DNA of 64,000 nucleotides from Fibrobacter sp. UWP2 (GTDB lineage Bacteria > Fibrobacterota > Fibrobacteria > Fibrobacterales > Fibrobacteraceae): positions 62,001 to 126,000 of the forward strand of contig NZ_FQYM01000005.1 of the NCBI RefSeq assembly GCF_900141705.1. The letters run 5' to 3'. The stretch's first letter is position 1. The number at the start of each line of letters is the position of its first letter. Positions 1,230 to 10,345 of the stretch are shown piece after piece. The position numbers were made by a program, and so were the translations under genes. Below the pieces are notes generated by a model. That model saw only the letters and a list, made by a program, of their open reading frames with translations, ran no database searches and was not told where the DNA came from.

Positions 1230-1850
1230 ATGTCTAAAATGCTTCAATCTTTCAGCCCCGAATCCGATGGTTGGCAGTTCATGTGGATCATCTTGGCCGT
1301 GTTCATCATCGGTCTCGGTTTCTCCATTGAACGTATTGTCTACATCATGGTGAAGAGCTCTAAGGGCCGCGCTAAGTTCCTCGCTGACTTCGGTAAGCTG
1401 ATCAGCTCTCAGAACTTCGACCAGGCTTTGAGCCTGGCTAATGCAACGAACCTCCCGGTCGCTCGCATTATGTCTGCCATTGTCAGCAACCGTGCCGGTG
1501 GCCGCGAACAGATGCAGGCCGCTTGCGACGCTGTGTTCCTGACTGAAGCTCCGCGTCTGACTCGTTACGTTAGCATTGTCCAGGTTATGGCTTCCATCTC
1601 TACGTTGCTCGGACTTATGGGTACGATTTACGGTCTGATCTTCACATTCGACGCTGTGGCTAACAAACCGGCTTCTGAACGTGCTAAGGCTCTTGCCGAC
1701 GGTATCGCTATCGCTATGGGTACGACGCTCCTCGGACTTCTCTCCGCTGTGCCTCTCCTGGTCATCGTGGGTATCCTCAACATGAACTCCGAACGCCTTA
1801 TCCAGGAAATGGAAGAAAAGGGCCTCAAGATTATCAACTCCCTCTCCTAA
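1230..1850 (+). CDS. MotA/TolQ/ExbB proton channel family protein
   Basis: The 206-residue product matches the small ExbB/TolQ family: a first membrane segment at about residues 15-38, a cytoplasmic loop, and two more segments at about 110-135 and 155-180. Proteins of this family form a pentameric inner-membrane channel that couples proton flow to work in the envelope through ExbD/TolR partners. A good Shine-Dalgarno (AAAGGAG at 1216-1222) fixes the start. Two ExbD-like genes and a TonB-tail gene follow closely, so the four genes form one operon and probably one machine. The operon layout (one Q-type, two R-type, one AgmX-type) recalls Tol/Ton and the myxobacterial Agl-Glt motor; the exact role is inferred. 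Confidence 0.9.
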   Translation: MSKMLQSFSPESDGWQFMWIILAVFIIGLGFSIERIVYIMVKSSKGRAKFLADFGKLISSQNFDQALSLANATNLPVARIMSAIVSNRAGGREQMQAACDAVFLTEAPRLTRYVSIVQVMASISTLLGLMGTIYGLIFTFDAVANKPASERAKALADGIAIAMGTTLLGLLSAVPLLVIVGILNMNSERLIQEMEEKGLKIINSLS

Positions 1851-1888: not shown

Positions 1889-2785
1889 ATGGCAAAACAA
1901 TTAAAGAAATCAGCTAAGCCTGAAGAACCGGATTTGCTCCCGGCGATGGGCTTGTTCACTATTCTGATTCCTATGCTTTTGACCATGACGGCTTTCTCTA
2001 AGCTTGCTATTGTCGAAGTCAATCTGCCTGAACGTAGTATGATGCAGATGGACAACGAAACGCCTCCGGAACCGGACCAGCAAGCATTGAACTTGTCCCT
2101 CGCTATCACCAGCGATTACCTTGTGATTGGTGCTCGCGGTGGTTTCCAGCCGAACGTCTATTTCAAGGAAATGTGGACGTTCCGCTGCAAGTCCGATGCC
2201 AAGCTCATTACGCATTCCATGGAAGACGTGAAGTCAGTAGTAGAAAGCGGTCACGGCCCCAAGTGCAAAGATGGCTCTGAGATGGATAAAGAGAAGTATC
2301 TCTATGAAATCGAAAGCATCGAGCTCTGGGCTATCCAAAAGGAATCTGAAGAAGATCCCGGCAAGGTTATTTGGGCTGTCTACTCCAATGGTGGTAGTGC
2401 CGAAGAACCCGTTGCCGACAGTGCCTACGTAGATGGCAACAACAACTTCATCGCATTGCCGGGTGAAGGTGCCATGGGCCTTACTCCGCCGCCGGCTCTT
2501 AAGAAGCCTGCTGCCGGTGTTGCCCTCGCTACCCTTACTCCGAACTCTGCTCGTACGCTCAAACCGGATGTCGCTGCGAAGAACATAATCTATCCGCTTT
2601 CCGCTTACGACCTGATTGCGAAGGACCTCATTGCTATCCACACGCAGTTTATTGACCTCGAAGACGTTGATAACATTATTATCGTGGCAAACGATGATAC
2701 TCAATTTGACAAGATCATCCAGCTCATGGACCGTTCCAAGGAAGCTGGGTTCACCAAGATCAATCTTGCTAAGTTGGGAGGTTAA
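1889..2785 (+). CDS. ExbD/TolR-like protein, long form lacking the conserved membrane Asp
   Basis: The 298-residue protein has a short basic cytoplasmic N-terminus, one membrane segment at about residues 16-38 and a large periplasmic domain, the ExbD/TolR layout but roughly twice the usual length. Lined up with the next gene product, the residue expected to be the protonated Asp of the membrane segment (Asp21 there) is Gly21 here. The extra periplasmic length has Cys residues at about 96, 114 and 120 and ends in a region (VDNIIIVANDDTQFDKIIQLMD) typical of ExbD C-terminal folds. It starts 38 bp after the channel gene behind ACTGGAGTT. It may be a structural or regulatory partner instead of a proton-conducting one. 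Confidence 0.8.
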   Translation: MAKQLKKSAKPEEPDLLPAMGLFTILIPMLLTMTAFSKLAIVEVNLPERSMMQMDNETPPEPDQQALNLSLAITSDYLVIGARGGFQPNVYFKEMWTFRCKSDAKLITHSMEDVKSVVESGHGPKCKDGSEMDKEKYLYEIESIELWAIQKESEEDPGKVIWAVYSNGGSAEEPVADSAYVDGNNNFIALPGEGAMGLTPPPALKKPAAGVALATLTPNSARTLKPDVAAKNIIYPLSAYDLIAKDLIAIHTQFIDLEDVDNIIIVANDDTQFDKIIQLMDRSKEAGFTKINLAKLGG

Positions 2786-2787
2786 TC

Positions 2788-3282
2788 ATGGCTAGAAGAA
2801 CTCGTAAATATAGCGAAGACGTACCTTTTTCATTGACCTCCATGATGGACATGATGACCATCATTCTGGTGTTCATGATTAAGAACATGGATGCTGAAGG
2901 TCAGCTCTTGACTCAGGCCGAAAACTTGATTCTTCCGATTTCTACGTCGAAGATCCAGCCGAAGACCGTGTCGCTGACTGTCGTGGTCGATGCGAACTAT
3001 GTTATTGCCGATAATGAACAAGTCGTGCCGACGCCCGACGTTCTTGCTCAGGAAGACCTGCTTGTGACCAGGCTGGACGAAATCCTGAAGGACCGTCGCG
3101 CCATTGAACAGGAACACGCTCTTAAGATGGGCCTTCCTGCCGATGAAGCCGGTAACATCATTGTCCAGATCGACAAGAATATCCCGTACGATGTAATGTA
3201 TAAGGTGATGGCCACTTGCGGCTTCTCCGGTTACACGAACATCGCGTTCGCCGTGATGCAAAAGAACGGCGGGGAGGAATAA
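2788..3282 (+). CDS. ExbD/TolR family biopolymer transport protein
   Basis: This 164-residue protein has the ExbD/TolR layout: basic N-terminus, one membrane helix at about residues 15-33 with the conserved Asp (Asp21, in LTSMMDMMT), and a periplasmic domain with the family's C-terminal pattern (VQIDKNIPYDVMYKVM). Asp21 is the expected proton-carrying residue of the channel complex. It begins 3 bp after the preceding ExbD-like gene and is followed 2 bp later by the AgmX-tail gene, so the products are probably made together. Confidence 0.9.
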   Translation: MARRTRKYSEDVPFSLTSMMDMMTIILVFMIKNMDAEGQLLTQAENLILPISTSKIQPKTVSLTVVVDANYVIADNEQVVPTPDVLAQEDLLVTRLDEILKDRRAIEQEHALKMGLPADEAGNIIVQIDKNIPYDVMYKVMATCGFSGYTNIAFAVMQKNGGEE

Positions 3283-3284
3283 CT

Positions 3285-4220
3285 ATGGCTAAGAAAAAAG
3301 AACAAGTAGATCCGTTAGTAGCGTCTCTAATGCCGGAATCCGACAAGAAGATGGGCGCCATCGCCGGTATCTCCTTGCTTGTCGCTCTTGCAATTTCTCT
3401 GTGGGCTTCCATGTACGAAGCTGTGGTCGACGAAGTGATCTTCGAAGAATCTGCAGCTGAAGACCTCTCCGCTTCCATGATGATGGAAGAGAAGAAGGAA
3501 GAGAAGAAAGAAGAGAAGAAGAAAGAAGAGCCCAAGAAGCCTCGTAAAAAGGCCGGTGGCGGTGGTAAGCCGCGTGGTAAGGGCCAGCCGAACGCTCCGC
3601 AGACTCGCGGCGTGCTCAAGCTCCTTACTGCCCAGACCAAGAACGCCAGTGCCGGTGCTTACGATTTGATGAAGAACCAGAAGTTCTCCAAGGACATCGA
3701 CAAGGTGCTCAAGGACGTGGCGGGCCTCCAGACTACGGGTAAGACCGTGCTCGGCGGTCGTCGCGGTAAGGCTGACGGTGGCTTCAACGAAGGTTACGCA
3801 GAAGGCGGTTCCGGTGGTATCGGTGACGGCTTGGCCGGCCTCCTCGGCGGTGGTGGCGGTGGTATCGCTACCAAGGCTAAGGGTTCCATCAAGACTCCGT
3901 CTGAACGCGATATCGACATGGGTGCCGGTGGTGGATCTCGTTCCGCTGCAGACATCATGAAGGTCGTGCGTCAGCGTACTCCGGGCCTGCGCCACATCTA
4001 TAACAAGTTCCTGAAGAAGAAACCGGGATTCCAGGGTAAGGTTACCTTGAAGTTCACGATTGCTCCGGGTGGCGAAGTTATCAGCATTTCCATTGCTTCT
4101 TCTACAACTGGTTACGGCGAATTTGACGGCGAAGTCAAAACCGCTGTGAGCCGCTGGAAGTTCAGCAAGGTGAAATCCGGTAACACGACGGTTACGATTC
4201 CGTTCACGTTCTCCGAATAA
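3285..4220 (+). CDS. AgmX/PglI C-terminal-domain protein (TonB-like energy transducer)
   Basis: The 311-residue product has a short cytoplasmic N-terminus, one membrane helix at about residues 22-42, a Glu/Lys-rich stretch (about 65-90), a Gly-rich spacer (about 170-215) and a TonB-like C-terminal domain (about 225-311) of the AgmX/PglI type, with VTLKFTIAPGGEV and a final beta strand VTIPFTF. TonB-like proteins reach across the periplasm and pass force from the ExbB/ExbD motor to outer-membrane partners. The start at 3285 is chosen because GGGGAGG lies just upstream, overlapping the end of the preceding gene; the frame is open further back to 3216 but lacks a ribosome site. Last gene of the operon, followed by a strong terminator. 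Confidence 0.88.
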   Translation: MAKKKEQVDPLVASLMPESDKKMGAIAGISLLVALAISLWASMYEAVVDEVIFEESAAEDLSASMMMEEKKEEKKEEKKKEEPKKPRKKAGGGGKPRGKGQPNAPQTRGVLKLLTAQTKNASAGAYDLMKNQKFSKDIDKVLKDVAGLQTTGKTVLGGRRGKADGGFNEGYAEGGSGGIGDGLAGLLGGGGGGIATKAKGSIKTPSERDIDMGAGGGSRSAADIMKVVRQRTPGLRHIYNKFLKKKPGFQGKVTLKFTIAPGGEVISISIASSTTGYGEFDGEVKTAVSRWKFSKVKSGNTTVTIPFTFSE

Positions 4221-4354: not shown

Positions 4355-5641
4355 ATGAACTTAAGATCTGCTGCTGCAGTTGGTGTTGCTTTCGGCATCC
4401 TCGGTGTGGGGTCCGCCTTCGCAACTTTCGCTCGCATTGAATCTATGGGCAAGAATACGACTTACATTATGGACGATGTGAGTATCTTCGATAACCCTGC
4501 GAATATCAACCTTTATCCGAACTACTTGATTGGTGGCTTCGGTCCTTACACGCAGAACGTCCCTGTTGGCGAAAACCAGGATCCGCAGCATCCGGATTTC
4601 GGAGGCATCTTCAGCATCTCCATGGGTGACGAAAACAATCCGGATCCGCGCCTCTCCATCGGTGGCTTGTTCGGTCGTTTCTCTGAACTTACCATGTACA
4701 TCCCCGATGTTGTCATTGGTGAAGGCAATACCGCTACCGTTACTCCCGAAACCGTGACGAACTTCGATGGCTTCTTGGGTGGCACGCTTACGAACGGCGA
4801 CGCATGGGGCTTGCACGTTTACATCGCTCACCAGGATGGTGGCTACAAAACTCCGAGCGGCACCTACCAGGTCGACAAGAATGCATACGCCTCCATCGTC
4901 CAGGCTGATGGTGGTTTGAACCTCCAGTTCGGTGGCAACATCGACTTCGAGTTCAGCTTTGGTTTGGCTCGTATCCAGTATGGACCGGAACACCAGGACT
5001 TCTTTGATGATGGCGATTTCTCCTTCTTGGCCAAGTCTCGTGCCTTCTTCACTCTCGAAGCTCTTGATGGTGAATTGGTCCCGGCTTTCAGCATGAAGTT
5101 GATCCAGGCTCCTGGCATCGAGGATGACCGTGCCATGGCCGGCCTCGGCATTAACGTCGCTTTGGATCGCGGCTTCTTCTGGTTGGGCGCCGACTTCATT
5201 TGGAACAAGATGAAGGCTCACGACTGGATGATTGACGATATCACTGGTGTTGCTACTTACAACGCCAACAACGATGAGGATCCTGCTTGGGATGAACGCA
5301 AGGATATCGGCGGCATGATCAGCTTCGGTATCGAACGCAACATTTGGTGGGATTGGTTCGTGATCCGCGTTGGCGGCAAGAAGTCCATCCTTTACACGCA
5401 GTGCGATGTGGATGACAAGAACCAGGGCAAGAATGGCATTTGCAACGATACTGGTAACTTCTTCTCGACGAACCCGCTTGCCGATGGTTCCTCTGAAGAC
5501 CACGTTGGCTTTGGCTTCGGTATCAACATCGAAGAAAAACTCAAGATTGACGTGACCGTTGCCGAAGACATGCTGTTCCGCAACCCGTTCCAGGGTGAAG
5601 GCCGCATCTTCTCCAGAATCGACGCCACCTATAGTTTCTAA
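4355..5641 (+). CDS. Secreted outer-membrane beta-barrel-like protein
   Basis: The 428-residue protein begins with a Sec signal peptide (cleavage near residues 22-24, after GSAFA) and continues with Gly/aromatic-rich alternating strands ending in ATYSF, a terminal Phe typical of outer-membrane barrels. The region after the signal (MDDVSIFDNPANINLYPNY) resembles uncharacterised Fibrobacter/Bacteroidota-type membrane proteins. A GGAGT ribosome site lies at 4344-4348. It stands alone between two terminators, just downstream of the motor operon, so it could be an outer-membrane partner, but that is only positional inference. Confidence 0.75.
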   Translation: MNLRSAAAVGVAFGILGVGSAFATFARIESMGKNTTYIMDDVSIFDNPANINLYPNYLIGGFGPYTQNVPVGENQDPQHPDFGGIFSISMGDENNPDPRLSIGGLFGRFSELTMYIPDVVIGEGNTATVTPETVTNFDGFLGGTLTNGDAWGLHVYIAHQDGGYKTPSGTYQVDKNAYASIVQADGGLNLQFGGNIDFEFSFGLARIQYGPEHQDFFDDGDFSFLAKSRAFFTLEALDGELVPAFSMKLIQAPGIEDDRAMAGLGINVALDRGFFWLGADFIWNKMKAHDWMIDDITGVATYNANNDEDPAWDERKDIGGMISFGIERNIWWDWFVIRVGGKKSILYTQCDVDDKNQGKNGICNDTGNFFSTNPLADGSSEDHVGFGFGINIEEKLKIDVTVAEDMLFRNPFQGEGRIFSRIDATYSF

Positions 5642-5668
5642 TAGCAGTTTGAATTTTTGAAAAGAAGA

Positions 5669-5694
5669 CGTGCTCTCGGGCACGCCTTTTTTTT
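5669..5694 (+). terminator. Terminator after the beta-barrel gene
   Basis: CGTGC (5669-5673) pairs with GCACG (5680-5684) and is followed by CC and eight T. A short but typical rho-independent terminator. Confidence 0.8.
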
Positions 5695-5723
5695 GTGGAA
5701 TGTGCATTTTCTATTTTTAGGCT

Positions 5724-6083
5724 ATGAGAAAAATTGTATTGCTGCTTTCGGCGCTTGTCCTTTTGGGTTGCACAGAGCCTTCGGAACGCATAGAGAAAAA
5801 ACTGGAGGCATACCTGCAGGAGGACCTCAAGTTTATGGTCGCCGAGACGATGCATGCCTCGGGCAAGGTGGCGTTGCTGGACGAGCCGTATTACCGTGTA
5901 AAGGACTTTCGTTTGTTCGAAGGTGCGTCGGCAGAGATCTACTCGGCCTACGCCGAGGTGGACTTCTTTATTTACAAGGACATTGCCATGCACGAGAAGC
6001 GCAAGTACCGCTACGACGCCGCCTCGCGCCACTGGGACCGCTATTTGAAGACGCTGCTATTTGGCAAGGATTCAGTCCAATAG
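5724..6083 (+). CDS. Small lipoprotein, function unknown
   Basis: A 119-residue protein with a lipoprotein signal peptide: MRKIVLLLSALVLLGC, with the lipobox LLGC placing the lipidated Cys at residue 16. The mature part is charged and aromatic with no recognisable domain. The start has no Shine-Dalgarno; a TATTTT box ends only 6 nt before the ATG, suggesting a leaderless transcript. It sits between the barrel gene and mreB and appears to be monocistronic. Confidence 0.75.
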   Translation: MRKIVLLLSALVLLGCTEPSERIEKKLEAYLQEDLKFMVAETMHASGKVALLDEPYYRVKDFRLFEGASAEIYSAYAEVDFFIYKDIAMHEKRKYRYDAASRHWDRYLKTLLFGKDSVQ

Positions 6084-6104
6084 CCTATACATTTTGTTGT
6101 GAAA

Positions 6105-6113
6105 TGCTATATT
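6105..6113 (+). promoter_or_regulatory. Extended -10 promoter for the mre operon
   Basis: ATGCTATATT has a TGC extension before a TATATT -10 box (6108-6113). No good -35 is seen at 17 bp. Transcription would start near 6120, leaving a leader of about 30 nt before mreB. Confidence 0.5.
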
Positions 6114-6150
6114 TTTTTTAAAAGTTCCACTTTAAAAAAAGGGCACTATT

Positions 6151-7173
6151 TTGTTCGGTCTTTTTTCTTGCGATATCGGTATTGATCTTGGCACGGCGAA
6201 CACTTTGGTCCACGTAGCCGGCCAGGGCATTGTCATTAACGAACCTACGGTGATTGCTGTGGACAGCAAGAACAACCGTGTTTCTGCCATTGGCTTTGAA
6301 GCCAAGAAGATGCTTGGCCGTACGCCCGGCGAAGTCCGTGCCGTGCGCCCCATGCGCGATGGCGTGATTGCCGATTTTGAATTGGTGGAAACCCTCCTCC
6401 AGACATTTATCAAGCGCGTGCAAAAATACCCGCTGTGGATGGTGAAACCTCGTGTGGTGGTTGGCGTGCCCAGCGGCATTACCGAAGTCGAAAAGCGTGC
6501 CGTGATTGACGCGGCCCGCCAGGCCGGTGCGAAGGAAGTTCACCTAGTACATGAACCGATGGCTGCTGCCGTTGGTATGGGCATCCCTGTCGAAGACCCC
6601 GTGGGTAACATGATTGTCGACATCGGTGGCGGCACTTCCGATATCGCCGTGATTGCATTGAACGGTACGGTCTGCAACGCTTCAGTTCGTGTAGGTGGCG
6701 ACGAGATGGACGACGCGATTGTGCGTTACCTCCGTACGATGTACAACCTCCAGGTGGGCGAGAGCACTGCCGAACAGATCAAGATCCAGATTGGTTCTGC
6801 TAGCCCGCTCGACGAAGAATTGACGATGGAAGTGAAGGGCCACGACTTTATTGCGGGAATGCCTCGCACGATGACCATCAAGAGCGAAGAAATTCGCGAA
6901 GCCCTGAACGAACCTGTAACGGCGATTATCGAGGCTGTGAAACAGGCTCTCAGCATGACTCCGGCCGAACTCTCTGCCGATATTTACGACAAGGGTATCA
7001 TCATGACCGGTGGAGCTTCGCAGTTGCGCGGTTTTGATGAACGCATCCGCAAGGAGACGGGTCTTTCGGTGAACGTGATTGACGACGCCCTGGTTTGTGT
7101 TTGCAAGGGTGCAGCTCGCATTCTCGAAGACCTTGACAAGTATCGTCCTGTTTTGATCGCTTCTTCTAACTAG
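6151..7173 (+). CDS. mreB: Rod shape-determining protein MreB
   Basis: MreB is the bacterial actin that organises elongasome wall synthesis under the inner membrane. The 340-residue product has the actin phosphate-1 motif DIGIDLGTANTLV near the N-terminus, the phosphate-2 motif VDIGGGTSDIAVIAL at about 155-170 and the adenosine motif MTGGASQLRGFD at about 285. Length is normal for the family. The start is a TTG at 6151 just before FGLFSCDIGIDLG; no in-frame ATG exists at the correct place, and GGG at 6141-6143 is the only ribosome-site candidate. It heads mreB-mreC-mreD-mrdA-rodA. Confidence 0.95.
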   Translation: MFGLFSCDIGIDLGTANTLVHVAGQGIVINEPTVIAVDSKNNRVSAIGFEAKKMLGRTPGEVRAVRPMRDGVIADFELVETLLQTFIKRVQKYPLWMVKPRVVVGVPSGITEVEKRAVIDAARQAGAKEVHLVHEPMAAAVGMGIPVEDPVGNMIVDIGGGTSDIAVIALNGTVCNASVRVGGDEMDDAIVRYLRTMYNLQVGESTAEQIKIQIGSASPLDEELTMEVKGHDFIAGMPRTMTIKSEEIREALNEPVTAIIEAVKQALSMTPAELSADIYDKGIIMTGGASQLRGFDERIRKETGLSVNVIDDALVCVCKGAARILEDLDKYRPVLIASSN

Positions 7174-7196
7174 CACAAACACCATACCGCAGTTCG

Positions 7197-8024
7197 ATGC
7201 TTAGGGCTTTCCGCTTTATTGTCGACTTGTTTACGCAAAGGCACGGTATTGTTGCCTTTGTGTTCTTCTTGCTGGTCGGTCTTTTGATGAGGCAGGCTCC
7301 CGACATCGTGAAAAACAGCATTGTCTCTACGGTATTGGGAACCGTGTTTTACCCTGCGCAAATGGTGATTTCGTCGGTGGACGCCTTCCGTTCTGTGGCT
7401 GCCGAAAACGAACACCTTAAAGAAGAAAACGCAAGGCTCCGCCAAGAGACTTACTATGCGAGCGAGGGATTGCAAGAATTGGCCCGACTCCACACCTTGG
7501 TCCGTTTTGACGACAAGTGGGATTACCCGATTGTGACGGCACGTGTGGTAGGGCACAATGCGGGGCGTTTTTTGACGACGCTTGTGATTAACCGTGGTAC
7601 GCGGCACGGCGTTAAAGAGAATATGCCGGTTTTCTCGATGAATGGCCTGGTTGGCAAAATCACCAAGGCGTCGTATGCGCATTCACGAGTGCAGCTGCTG
7701 GTGGACCCGAACCTTAAGTTGTCTGTACTTGAACGCAGGACGCGTGTGGTTGGCTTCTTGGAATCGGTGGATGGCCATTTGCTTACGGCGATGGTCCCGA
7801 CGCATGCAGGCGTCAAGGAAGGCGACACGCTCATCACCTCTGGCCTGGGCGGCATTTTTCCCAAGGGTATCCCTGTGGGTACGGTAAAGGCGGTTCGCGA
7901 ATCGGACCTCGATGTGATGCGCCTTATGGATGTGGCTCCGTTCCAAGAGTTTTCGACGCTTGAAGAAGTCTTTGTGATGGAAAAGGATCCCGAGTGGATT
8001 ATCCAGGAGTTGTTGGATGAATAA
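7197..8024 (+). CDS. mreC: Rod shape-determining protein MreC
   Basis: A 275-residue bitopic inner-membrane protein: one membrane helix at about residues 17-37, a periplasmic coiled coil at about 65-95 (SVAAENEHLKEENARLRQE) and the MreC beta domain, with VGKITKASYAHSRVQLLVDP and GLGGIFPKGIPVGTV. It links MreB filaments to PBP2/RodA. The start codon lies 23 bp after mreB and the 3' end overlaps mreD by 8 bp, consistent with coupled translation. Confidence 0.94.
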   Translation: MLRAFRFIVDLFTQRHGIVAFVFFLLVGLLMRQAPDIVKNSIVSTVLGTVFYPAQMVISSVDAFRSVAAENEHLKEENARLRQETYYASEGLQELARLHTLVRFDDKWDYPIVTARVVGHNAGRFLTTLVINRGTRHGVKENMPVFSMNGLVGKITKASYAHSRVQLLVDPNLKLSVLERRTRVVGFLESVDGHLLTAMVPTHAGVKEGDTLITSGLGGIFPKGIPVGTVKAVRESDLDVMRLMDVAPFQEFSTLEEVFVMEKDPEWIIQELLDE

Positions 8025-8505
8025 CCTCAAGTGGATCAAGACTTTTTTGTTGCTGTTGGTCTGTTTTATTTTGCAGACGACCGTGGTTGACTGGCTCCAG
8101 ATTTTTGGAATAGGCCCGGACCTCATGATTATTTTGATTGTCTCTATCTCGATTAAGTACGGCCCTGCTGCAGGGTGCTTTTGGGGATTTTTTGCAGGTT
8201 TCTCGCAAGACATATATGCGCCCGTGGAGTGGCTCGGTGCCAACACAATTTCCATGACTGTTCTTGGATTTGTGGTGGGACAACTCGAAGAGAGATTCTT
8301 GACTTTAAACTTGCCCGCCAAGGTGGCCGTTCTCGCCATTGGGTTCTTTGTTTGCGACATGTTGTACTTTATGCTGACGGGTCTCGAAAAAGATGTGGTA
8401 ACCAACCTGTTTTTCTCGAAGACTATCCCGGAATGCATTTATACAGTGGTCGTTGGCGCCGTGGTGTTTTATTTGTCGAGCGGGAAAAAGAAGCGCAATG
8501 TTTAG
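8017..8505 (+). CDS. mreD: Rod shape-determining protein MreD
   Basis: A 162-residue polytopic membrane protein with about five hydrophobic segments, the usual size for MreD. It is identified by position between mreC and mrdA and by the pattern LQTTVVDWLQIFGIGPDLMI near the N-terminus, common in MreD. The start ATG overlaps the end of mreC by 8 bp and the end overlaps the start of mrdA by 8 bp. Confidence 0.9.
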   Translation: MNNLKWIKTFLLLLVCFILQTTVVDWLQIFGIGPDLMIILIVSISIKYGPAAGCFWGFFAGFSQDIYAPVEWLGANTISMTVLGFVVGQLEERFLTLNLPAKVAVLAIGFFVCDMLYFMLTGLEKDVVTNLFFSKTIPECIYTVVVGAVVFYLSSGKKKRNV

Positions 8506-10345
8506 GGAAACGGACAACGAATATGTCCAGACCAGAAACTGGAACGTGCTCGTGTTCATGGGAGTCGTGTTCATTATGTTCACGATTCTTTTGATTCGCC
8601 TTTATTCTTTGCAGTACACCCATTACGACGAAAACCTCCAGCGCTCCGAGAACAACCGCATTCGCAAAGTGGAACTCATTGCCGAGCGCGGTTACATTTA
8701 CGACCGCAACGGCGAAGTGTTGGTGCGCAACAGGCCCTCGTACCAAATTGCACTGCAGGCGATGAACCTGCCCCGCAAATCAAGCGAACGTGATTCGGTG
8801 TTCCAGCGCTTGCTGCGCATAAAAGACAAAAACGGGGAGCGGGTTTTTGATTCCGCCTCTGTGGATACCGCGTTCCAGCGAAGCCGTTGGATAAAGAACA
8901 AGCCAATCCGTTTTTTTGAGGATGCTTCTCCAGAGCAGGTTGCCATCATTGAAGAACATTCCGCGGAATTGCCGGGTGTCGTGACCCTCATTGAATCTCG
9001 CAGGGAGTATCCGTATGGCACGCTTGCCTCCCACGTTTTGGGTTATACCGGTGAGATCTCGGAAGACCAGTTGAAACTGCCCGAGTTCAAGAATTACTCG
9101 CAGGGCGACCGCATTGGGCAAAAGGGTTTGGAGCAAGGTTACGACCAGGAGTTCCGCGGCAAGAACGGTCTCAAGCTTGTAGAAGTGAACGCCTCTGGCA
9201 GGGAGATCGGCTTGGTGAAAGGCGTCGAGAGCCAGGCGCCGGTTCCGGGATTGCACTTGGTCTCTACAATCGACTTGAAATTGCAGAAGGTCGCCGAAGA
9301 GGCAATTCCCGATAGCGCAAGGGGAGCCTTGGTGGCAATAGACCCGCGCAACGGGGAAATCCTTGCGATGGTGAGTTCGCCCCGTTTGGACCCGAACATC
9401 TTTTCGCTTAAGCGTCGTGAACGTAATAAGGGCTGGGCGCATGTTGCCCTCGATTCCATGCGTCCGCTTACCAACCGAGCCATTTCGGGAACTTATACGC
9501 CGGCCTCCGTCTTTAAGCTTGTCACCGCCGGTGCGGGCCTCGAGAACGGCGTGCTCTCTGAAACCAAGTATTACCCCAAGCCGTGTACGGGCGGCTACCA
9601 GTACGGCGCCCGCTACCAAAAGTGCTGGGGAACTCACGGAAGCCTGAATGTGGTGAATGCGATTCGCTTGAGTTGTGACGTGTTCTTTTACCAGGCGGGT
9701 CTTGATATAGACATGGCTCGCATCAACGAGTTCGCTCGCCGTTTTGGTTTGGGCGAGAATCCGCTTGGCGTCGACATCCCTGGCGAGAAAGGCGGCTGGC
9801 TTCCGGATTCCGCTTCGTTCAATGCGAAGAACAAGCGCTTGGGCTGGCGTTGGGCGCGAGGCCTTATTCTGAACCTCTCCATAGGGCAGGGACAGCTGGT
9901 GACTCCGTTACAGCAGGCGGTGCTTGTGGGCTCGCTTGCGACGAACAAGGGCGTCTACCGTCCGCACTTTATGAAGGAACTTCGCGATTCCGAAGGGAAC
10001 GTGGTCAAGCGTTTTGAACCCGAGATCATTCGCCCGGGGAACATGAAGCCTGAGACGCATCGCGTGCTGATGGCCGCCATGGATTCGGTGGTGAACCACC
10101 CCGGTGGAACGGGCAAACGCGGCGCCGTGCCGGGAATCCGCGTGGGTGCCAAGACGGGTTCGGGCGAATGGAAGAAGGGCGCCAAGACGCACGCCTGGTA
10201 TGCGGCGGTCGCTCCGCTCGACAACCCCGAAATCGCCGTCGCCGTGATTATGGAAGCCGCCGGTGGTGGTGGCGCTGTGTCGGGCCCTATTGCGCGCAAA
10301 GTGATGATGGCCTACTTTGGCAAGGAAGATGAGGTGAAAAAATGA
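8498..10345 (+). CDS. mrdA: Penicillin-binding protein 2 (elongasome transpeptidase)
   Basis: PBP2 cross-links new peptidoglycan during rod elongation. The 615-residue protein has a membrane anchor at about residues 17-38, a pedestal (dimerisation) domain with RNRPSYQIALQ and GYTGEI, and a transpeptidase domain with the active-site tetrad S337-V-F-K340, the SxD motif S392-C-D394 and K552-T-G554. The ATG at 8498, overlapping the end of mreD, is preferred over the in-frame 8453 start because the family begins shortly before its membrane helix. Confidence 0.95.
   Translation: MFRETDNEYVQTRNWNVLVFMGVVFIMFTILLIRLYSLQYTHYDENLQRSENNRIRKVELIAERGYIYDRNGEVLVRNRPSYQIALQAMNLPRKSSERDSVFQRLLRIKDKNGERVFDSASVDTAFQRSRWIKNKPIRFFEDASPEQVAIIEEHSAELPGVVTLIESRREYPYGTLASHVLGYTGEISEDQLKLPEFKNYSQGDRIGQKGLEQGYDQEFRGKNGLKLVEVNASGREIGLVKGVESQAPVPGLHLVSTIDLKLQKVAEEAIPDSARGALVAIDPRNGEILAMVSSPRLDPNIFSLKRRERNKGWAHVALDSMRPLTNRAISGTYTPASVFKLVTAGAGLENGVLSETKYYPKPCTGGYQYGARYQKCWGTHGSLNVVNAIRLSCDVFFYQAGLDIDMARINEFARRFGLGENPLGVDIPGEKGGWLPDSASFNAKNKRLGWRWARGLILNLSIGQGQLVTPLQQAVLVGSLATNKGVYRPHFMKELRDSEGNVVKRFEPEIIRPGNMKPETHRVLMAAMDSVVNHPGGTGKRGAVPGIRVGAKTGSGEWKKGAKTHAWYAAVAPLDNPEIAVAVIMEAAGGGGAVSGPIARKVMMAYFGKEDEVKK

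Follow-up and report, generated by a model that had tools for sequence, protein, structure and literature searches.

A probable ExbD/TolR heterodimer motor in Fibrobacter and its relatives, with the pore aspartate in only one of two paired genes

What part can an ExbD/TolR protein play in a proton-driven motor when its pore helix lacks the aspartate that carries the protons? The question is raised by a locus in the window, the whole 64,000-nucleotide stretch of the 3.23 Mb Fibrobacter sp. UWP2 genome analysed here, in which a single ExbB gene adjoins two ExbD genes, D1 and D2 (Table 1). Both ExbD reading frames are intact, lie two bases apart and exceed the PF02472 ExbD cut-off of 25.4 bits. 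After a TPR gene, homologues of which sit before ExbB throughout the phylum by synteny, the row of ExbB, D1, D2, GltG/TonB-like protein, outer-membrane porin and small lipoprotein is conserved, and it is kept in about a dozen family-level groups of Fibrobacterota. The GltG/TonB-like product also matches the NF033760 GltG model at 64.8 bits, under the equivalog cut-off of 650. The four other ExbD genes of the genome all encode the Asp, each with its own ExbB, and D1 is the sole Asp-less ExbD. At two other loci of the same genome (C34 and C8; L001 and L002), two tandem ExbB genes precede one ExbD.

Table 1. Features of the motor locus, in positions of the window
Feature	Position	Strand	Basis
3' end of long periplasmic TPR protein, ~1,280 aa	1..1039	+	TPR Pfam matches; ORF begins upstream of the window (from L087:13200)
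ExbB/TolQ/AglR-type ring subunit, 206 aa	1230..1850	+	PF01618 77.5 bits
ExbB Thr132, E. coli Thr148 position	1623..1625	+	Thr in 123/123 motors and 45/45 canonical ExbB controls
ExbB Ile161, E. coli Glu176 position (TM3 Glu)	1710..1712	+	alignment of motors and canonical controls
ExbB Thr165-Thr166; Thr166 at E. coli Thr181 position	1722..1727	+	Thr166 in 123/123
D1, ExbD/TolR-fold protein without pore Asp, 298 aa	1889..2785	+	PF02472 35.1 bits; TolR fold 5by4 Z 11.8
D1 transmembrane (pore) helix, residues 17-34	1937..1990	+	AlphaFold model
D1 Gly21 codon GGC, proton-carrier position	1949..1951	+	codon read; orthologue alignment
Insert in D1 periplasmic TolR/ExbD fold, approximate, residues ~85-232	2141..2584	+	fold alignment and model elements
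D2, ExbD/TolR protein with pore Asp, 164 aa	2788..3282	+	PF02472 53.3 bits
D2 Asp21 codon GAC, proton-carrier position	2848..2850	+	codon read; Asp in 186/186 partners
GltG/TonB-like trans-periplasmic protein, AgmX/PglI tail	3285..4220	+	NF033768 80.4 bits, cut-off 40
PopA-like outer-membrane porin (weak match)	4355..5641	+	NF053618 35.4 bits, below cut-off 150; syntenic homologues phylum-wide
Small lipoprotein-like gene, porin-mreB interval	5724..6083	+	syntenic homologues

The original prediction placed Gly21 in the first protein where the second has Asp21; its coordinates and residues are correct, and the lack of an acidic residue is conserved in D1 orthologues. The pore register rests on the ExbD motif N-x-T-P-x-x-D together with multiple alignments, because the profile-profile comparison of D1 with D2 aligns the C-terminal part alone. 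Over the motif region D1 reads D-L-L-P-A-M-G, and a deeper orthologue, L065, reads E-M-N-L-T-P-M-M-N. The AlphaFold model of D1 (pLDDT 81.9) has one N-terminal helix, residues 17-34, followed by the TolR/ExbD fold, and neither the sequence nor the model reveals any other acidic residue within this helix of the window protein. All 70 D1 orthologues of the phylum are non-acidic at position 21 (G 38, N 18, S 9, A 3, C 2), and all 66 of their D2 partners have Asp21. Gly is fixed in Fibrobacter and its nearest relatives, encoded there by GGC or GGT; the amino acid, as these genes indicate, is maintained while the codon varies. Because D1 has Gly21 and no Asp in its pore helix, it is best classed as an ExbD/TolR homologue that is not a proton-carrying ExbD.

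D1 could nevertheless transfer protons through another group, be it Asp15, a water chain or a position-21 residue such as Asn, Ser or Cys, and the motor would then not have a single carrier. In favour of this, the three residues named are polar and many Fibrobacterota D1 proteins have Asp15. However, Asp15 lies before the helix, so that no second Asp or Glu of D1 occupies the pore position, and it is Asn in L062, L065 and L066; in other D1 families, Asp or Glu occurs only at the far periplasmic end of the helix. Gly and Ala, moreover, cannot carry protons, and one or the other is present in 43 of 186 pairs. We regard a proton-transferring D1 as quite improbable.

The variant is found far beyond Fibrobacter. 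Within the phylum, 138 of 150 genomes contain D1 matches, some of them partial paralogues only. Profile searches of Myxococcota, Nitrospirota, the phylum of Geomobilimonas and one further phylum gave, with Fibrobacterota included, 150 ExbB-D1-D2 loci, and 186 after addition of further Fibrobacterota paralogues and fusion loci. Across these 186 loci in five phyla, the D1 pore residue is N in 104, G in 40, S in 16, C in 4, A in 3 and D in 19; D1 is thus non-acidic in 167 pairs, and D2 has Asp in every one. The search profile was built from Asp-less D1 sequences, which biases the frequencies outside Fibrobacterota and leaves the existence and spread of the variant unaffected. Position 28 of D1 also separates the two types, with Pro in 119 of 131 Asp-less proteins vs 2 of 19 with Asp (Fisher p 7e-13, a value that ignores shared ancestry). 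On the ExbB tree (123 rows; unrooted, with several weak branches), at least five changes of D1 state are required and D2 never changes; the nesting of L303/L306 and of L233/L235 inside Asn groups suggests that Asp was regained there. No match to D1 was obtained by tblastn against plasmids, where the ExbB query returned one distant Aeromonas ExbB only, nor did a scan of viral contigs yield any match. Reports of Asp-less ExbD/TolR members were not found among open-access PMC papers.

Relaxed constraint, by which the D1 pore position merely drifts and the motor has no functional asymmetry, would account for a state that varies among N, G, S, C, A and D. Yet the permitted states are narrow: across the 186 loci and one further D1 sequence with Thr (L301), the residue is small and neutral or is Asp, and a bulky or basic residue is never seen. 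Drift is also at odds with a Gly that the genus Fibrobacter and its closest relatives keep whether the codon is GGC or GGT, and with an ExbB Glu that changes along with the D1 state (see below). Such drift is very improbable indeed. Since the same design recurs in at least five phyla, these comparisons indicate that it is a widespread, old and selected form of an already known motor rather than a damaged gene.

Gene order and content indicate that the motor of the window is of the Agl/Glt type, to which Fibrobacter homologues of gltDEGC/aglRQS have been assigned earlier (PMC3169522). Similar to the AglRQS-Glt machinery of Myxococcus xanthus, the locus has the order ExbB-ExbD-ExbD (AglR-AglQ-AglS), a GltG-type tail protein, and TPR and outer-membrane partners. 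However, AglQ and AglS both carry the Asp (L199; PMC9389320), whereas the window protein at the AglQ position lacks it; the window ExbB also has no TM3 Glu, and its D1 is longer. The D1 pore position corresponds to Asp28 of AglQ, and the homologue in Myxococcus sp. CA023 (L199) has Asp at residue 28. The AglQ D28N mutation reportedly eliminates proton conductance and leaves gliding paralysed (PMC3858216). The commonest natural D1 state is Asn, therefore the same change, and a laboratory mutation that paralyses Myxococcus gliding is the natural state of related motors. The loss of Myxococcus motor function in AglQ D28N speaks against a single-carrier reading, since one Asp is insufficient in some backgrounds.

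A change in the ring may explain how other motors tolerate this state. The window ExbB retains both conserved pore Thr residues and lacks the TM3 Glu, with Ile161 in its place. We equate positions 132, 161 and 166 with E. coli 148, 176 and 181, using the ExbB sequence together with the GIxEALxxT motif. Glu occupies position 161 in 39 of the 45 canonical controls (single-ExbD or tandem), and among the 18 motors with an Asp-type D1 the residue is Glu or Lys in 16; it is charged in 1 of 105 motors with an Asp-less D1, nearly all of which have a non-polar residue or Thr. The exceptions are L233 and L235 (D1 Asp, ExbB Ile161) and L240 (D1 Asn, ExbB Glu161). Four phylogenetic contrasts of ExbB Glu against D1 Asp were available, of which three agree and none opposes (median p 0.25, not significant). 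Loss of the Glu may compensate for loss of the D1 Asp, which would name a ring change that offsets an AglQ D28N-like state. Thr165 was also considered as the compensating residue and rejected: it is present in 94 of 105 Asp-less motors and 0 of 18 Asp-type motors, yet also in 19 of 45 canonical ExbB proteins, and Glu loss alone is for this reason argued as the ring change.

The strongest evidence that D1 and D2 share a ring comes from gene fusions. Fifteen loci, 13 in Fibrobacterota and 2 in the Geomobilimonas phylum (L273, L280, L362, L364 and L366-L376), encode a free ExbB (255 aa in most), an ExbB::D1 fusion (~430 aa) and D2, in that order; in L372 the contig stretch starts too late for the free ExbB to show. 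At the pore position, the fused D1 carries N, G or S and D2 carries Asp. The pore of known 5:2 motors accommodates two helices (PMC9389320, PMC12965293). A ring with two fused chains would lack a carrier, and there would be no room for five, which leaves a single fused chain per ring as the expectation; one fused chain with free ExbB and one D2 is, on the gene products predicted, the only arrangement that uses all three with a carrier. The fusions would accordingly place D1 in the same ring, in about one copy, and would limit the stoichiometry of this form of the motor; by analogy the shared ring is carried from the fusion paralogues to the window. There is one ExbB gene per D1-D2 pair, and D1 and D2 mostly lie within a few bases of each other. 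Myxococcota also contain other tandem ExbD pairs, with Asp in both members.

Alternatively, D1 and D2 could occupy two separate rings, with ExbB5:D2:D2 doing the work and D1-ExbB complexes serving as proton-silent plugs, scaffolds or negative regulators. Whether the Agl ExbD-type chains AglQ and AglS form homo- or heterodimers is stated as unknown (PMC9389320), and D1 may act away from D2: Asp-less D1 genes with no D2 recognised in the stretch fetched occur at L069, L072, L331, L359-L361 and L363, and their products are possibly exchangeable chains. Against separate rings stand the 15 loci in which an ExbB::D1 fusion lies beside one free ExbB and one D2, the correlated change in the shared ExbB, and the nearly constant adjacency of D1 and D2. 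We consider separate rings unlikely, with a low but real probability. An obligate D1:D2 heterodimer within an ExbB pentamer, with a single proton carrier, is the probable arrangement, the structural models being of monomers. The proposal of an asymmetric pair, with one carrying and one non-carrying chain, is therefore well supported, though short of proof, by the single ExbB per pair, the conserved pairing, the ExbB::D1 fusions and the correlated loss of the ExbB pore Glu.

Some related genes depart from the pairing. L353 encodes a D1-like protein that has the Asp, and an ExbD partner was not recognised in the surrounding sequence. This one case fits a rule by which D1 gives up its Asp only where a partner with Asp is present, although the seven Asp-less D1 genes named above also have no recognised D2 nearby. 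L353 and L354, the latter cut by a contig end, are Asp-bearing D1-like members of Fibrobacterota family f4 in which D2 was not recognised. A third Fibrobacterota paralogue (L350-L352, L365 and L377-L385) combines a short D1 (~165-175 aa, with Asn) with D2, and at some of its loci a few hundred bases separate the two genes.

With D1 and D2 as a heterodimer, the product of the locus would be a proton-driven motor of Agl type and ExbB5:ExbD2 composition, with each of its two pore helices encoded by a separate gene. The sole protonatable Asp would come from D2, and D1 would occupy the other position in the ring without carrying protons, its pore residue being small and neutral (Asn, Gly, Ser, Ala or Cys). 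As the D2 Asp meets successive ExbB subunits, it would take up and release protons against the invariant ExbB Thr pair, while D1 would always be neutral at the pore position, like MotB D22N, a mimic of protonation (PMC9389320). Such a motor would consume about five protons per turn, not ten, and the orientation of its axle, including the two periplasmic domains, would be fixed. We narrowly favour the view that these loci define a separate, widespread class of rotary motor, with an obligate heterodimer axle, one Asp, a Glu-less ring, half the protons and a fixed orientation. If true, the class would represent a naturally occurring one-site form of a machine for which two equal sites are considered necessary.

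The TolR-fold domain of D1 would probably engage the GltG-like protein, which would cross the periplasm to an outer-membrane partner. In VIA-align the best matches to the D1 model are TolR (5by4, Z 11.8 over 92 residues) and ExbD (8vgc, Z 9.0). The alignment to the ExbD fold spans D1 residues 66-297 with just 74-92 residues aligned, and the model indicates a periplasmic domain made of a TolR fold with an insert of ~145 aa, whose boundaries are approximate. The best Foldseek rows for D1 (MreB and Hsp70) were discarded as low-TM matches; VIA-align puts TolR and ExbD first, and its MreB rows (Z <=8.7) were taken as a common arrangement. The median length of D1 is 295 aa in Fibrobacterota, 220 in one further phylum and 159-178 elsewhere. 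The original prediction noted that D1 is about twice the normal length and proposed that its extra periplasmic domain may be the working part. A link between the long domain and loss of the Asp is not supported: Asp-less D1 proteins of other phyla are short, with medians of ~160-220 aa, and the extension is on these lengths a separate, mainly Fibrobacterota feature. Several Fibrobacter genomes encode secreted or lipoprotein-like proteins (L077-L086) that lack the pore helix but share the periplasmic domain of D1, and several of these are fused to a GltG-like tail. These fusions suggest that the domain has some role, and hint at contact between D1 and GltG.

Other known motors resemble the locus in part. 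PVC-group TolQR-like motors with heterologous tolR pairs likewise combine a TPR gene, a tolQ-like gene and a pair of different tolR-like genes; unlike the window locus, a vWA transducer is reported, and loss of the Asp in one member is not mentioned in the portions of the account considered here (PMC12204202). The ExbB-ExbD-TonB and TolQ-TolR-TolA systems share the ExbB/TolQ fold with two pore Thr residues, the ExbD/TolR periplasmic fold and a TonB-like transducer, but both of their ExbD/TolR chains come from one gene and carry the Asp, and ExbB Glu176 is kept. GldL-GldM of Bacteroidota likewise powers a gliding or secretion machine as a 5:2 proton motor; however, its proton-carrying acid lies in GldL, not GldM, and its dimer is formed by one protein.

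In the window (interval 4355-10345) the motor operon lies directly upstream of mreB-mreC-mreD-pbp2. The same mre adjacency recurs in five other members of the class (L312-L314, L318 and L319), which are all but one of the class genomes examined; nothing was found in L320. In three genomes of the sister class (L315-L317), no mre homologues were found beside the operon. The Myxococcus Agl motor works with MreB (PMC13104615), and motility of F. succinogenes has not been demonstrated (PMC3079729). By analogy, the foremost guess is that the motor serves surface movement or envelope work linked to MreB. In recent Tol structures, the two Asp residues of the dimer occupy unequal settings (PMC12965293). 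A family with one Asp in a known gene makes the questions of dimer composition and Asp inequality directly testable, and a different proton cost per turn is predicted. Finally, a sequence titled Comamonas sp. KCTC 72670 (L090; BNCN01000011.1) encodes an MglA 99% identical to Myxococcus MglA, and this genome is probably mislabelled or contaminated.
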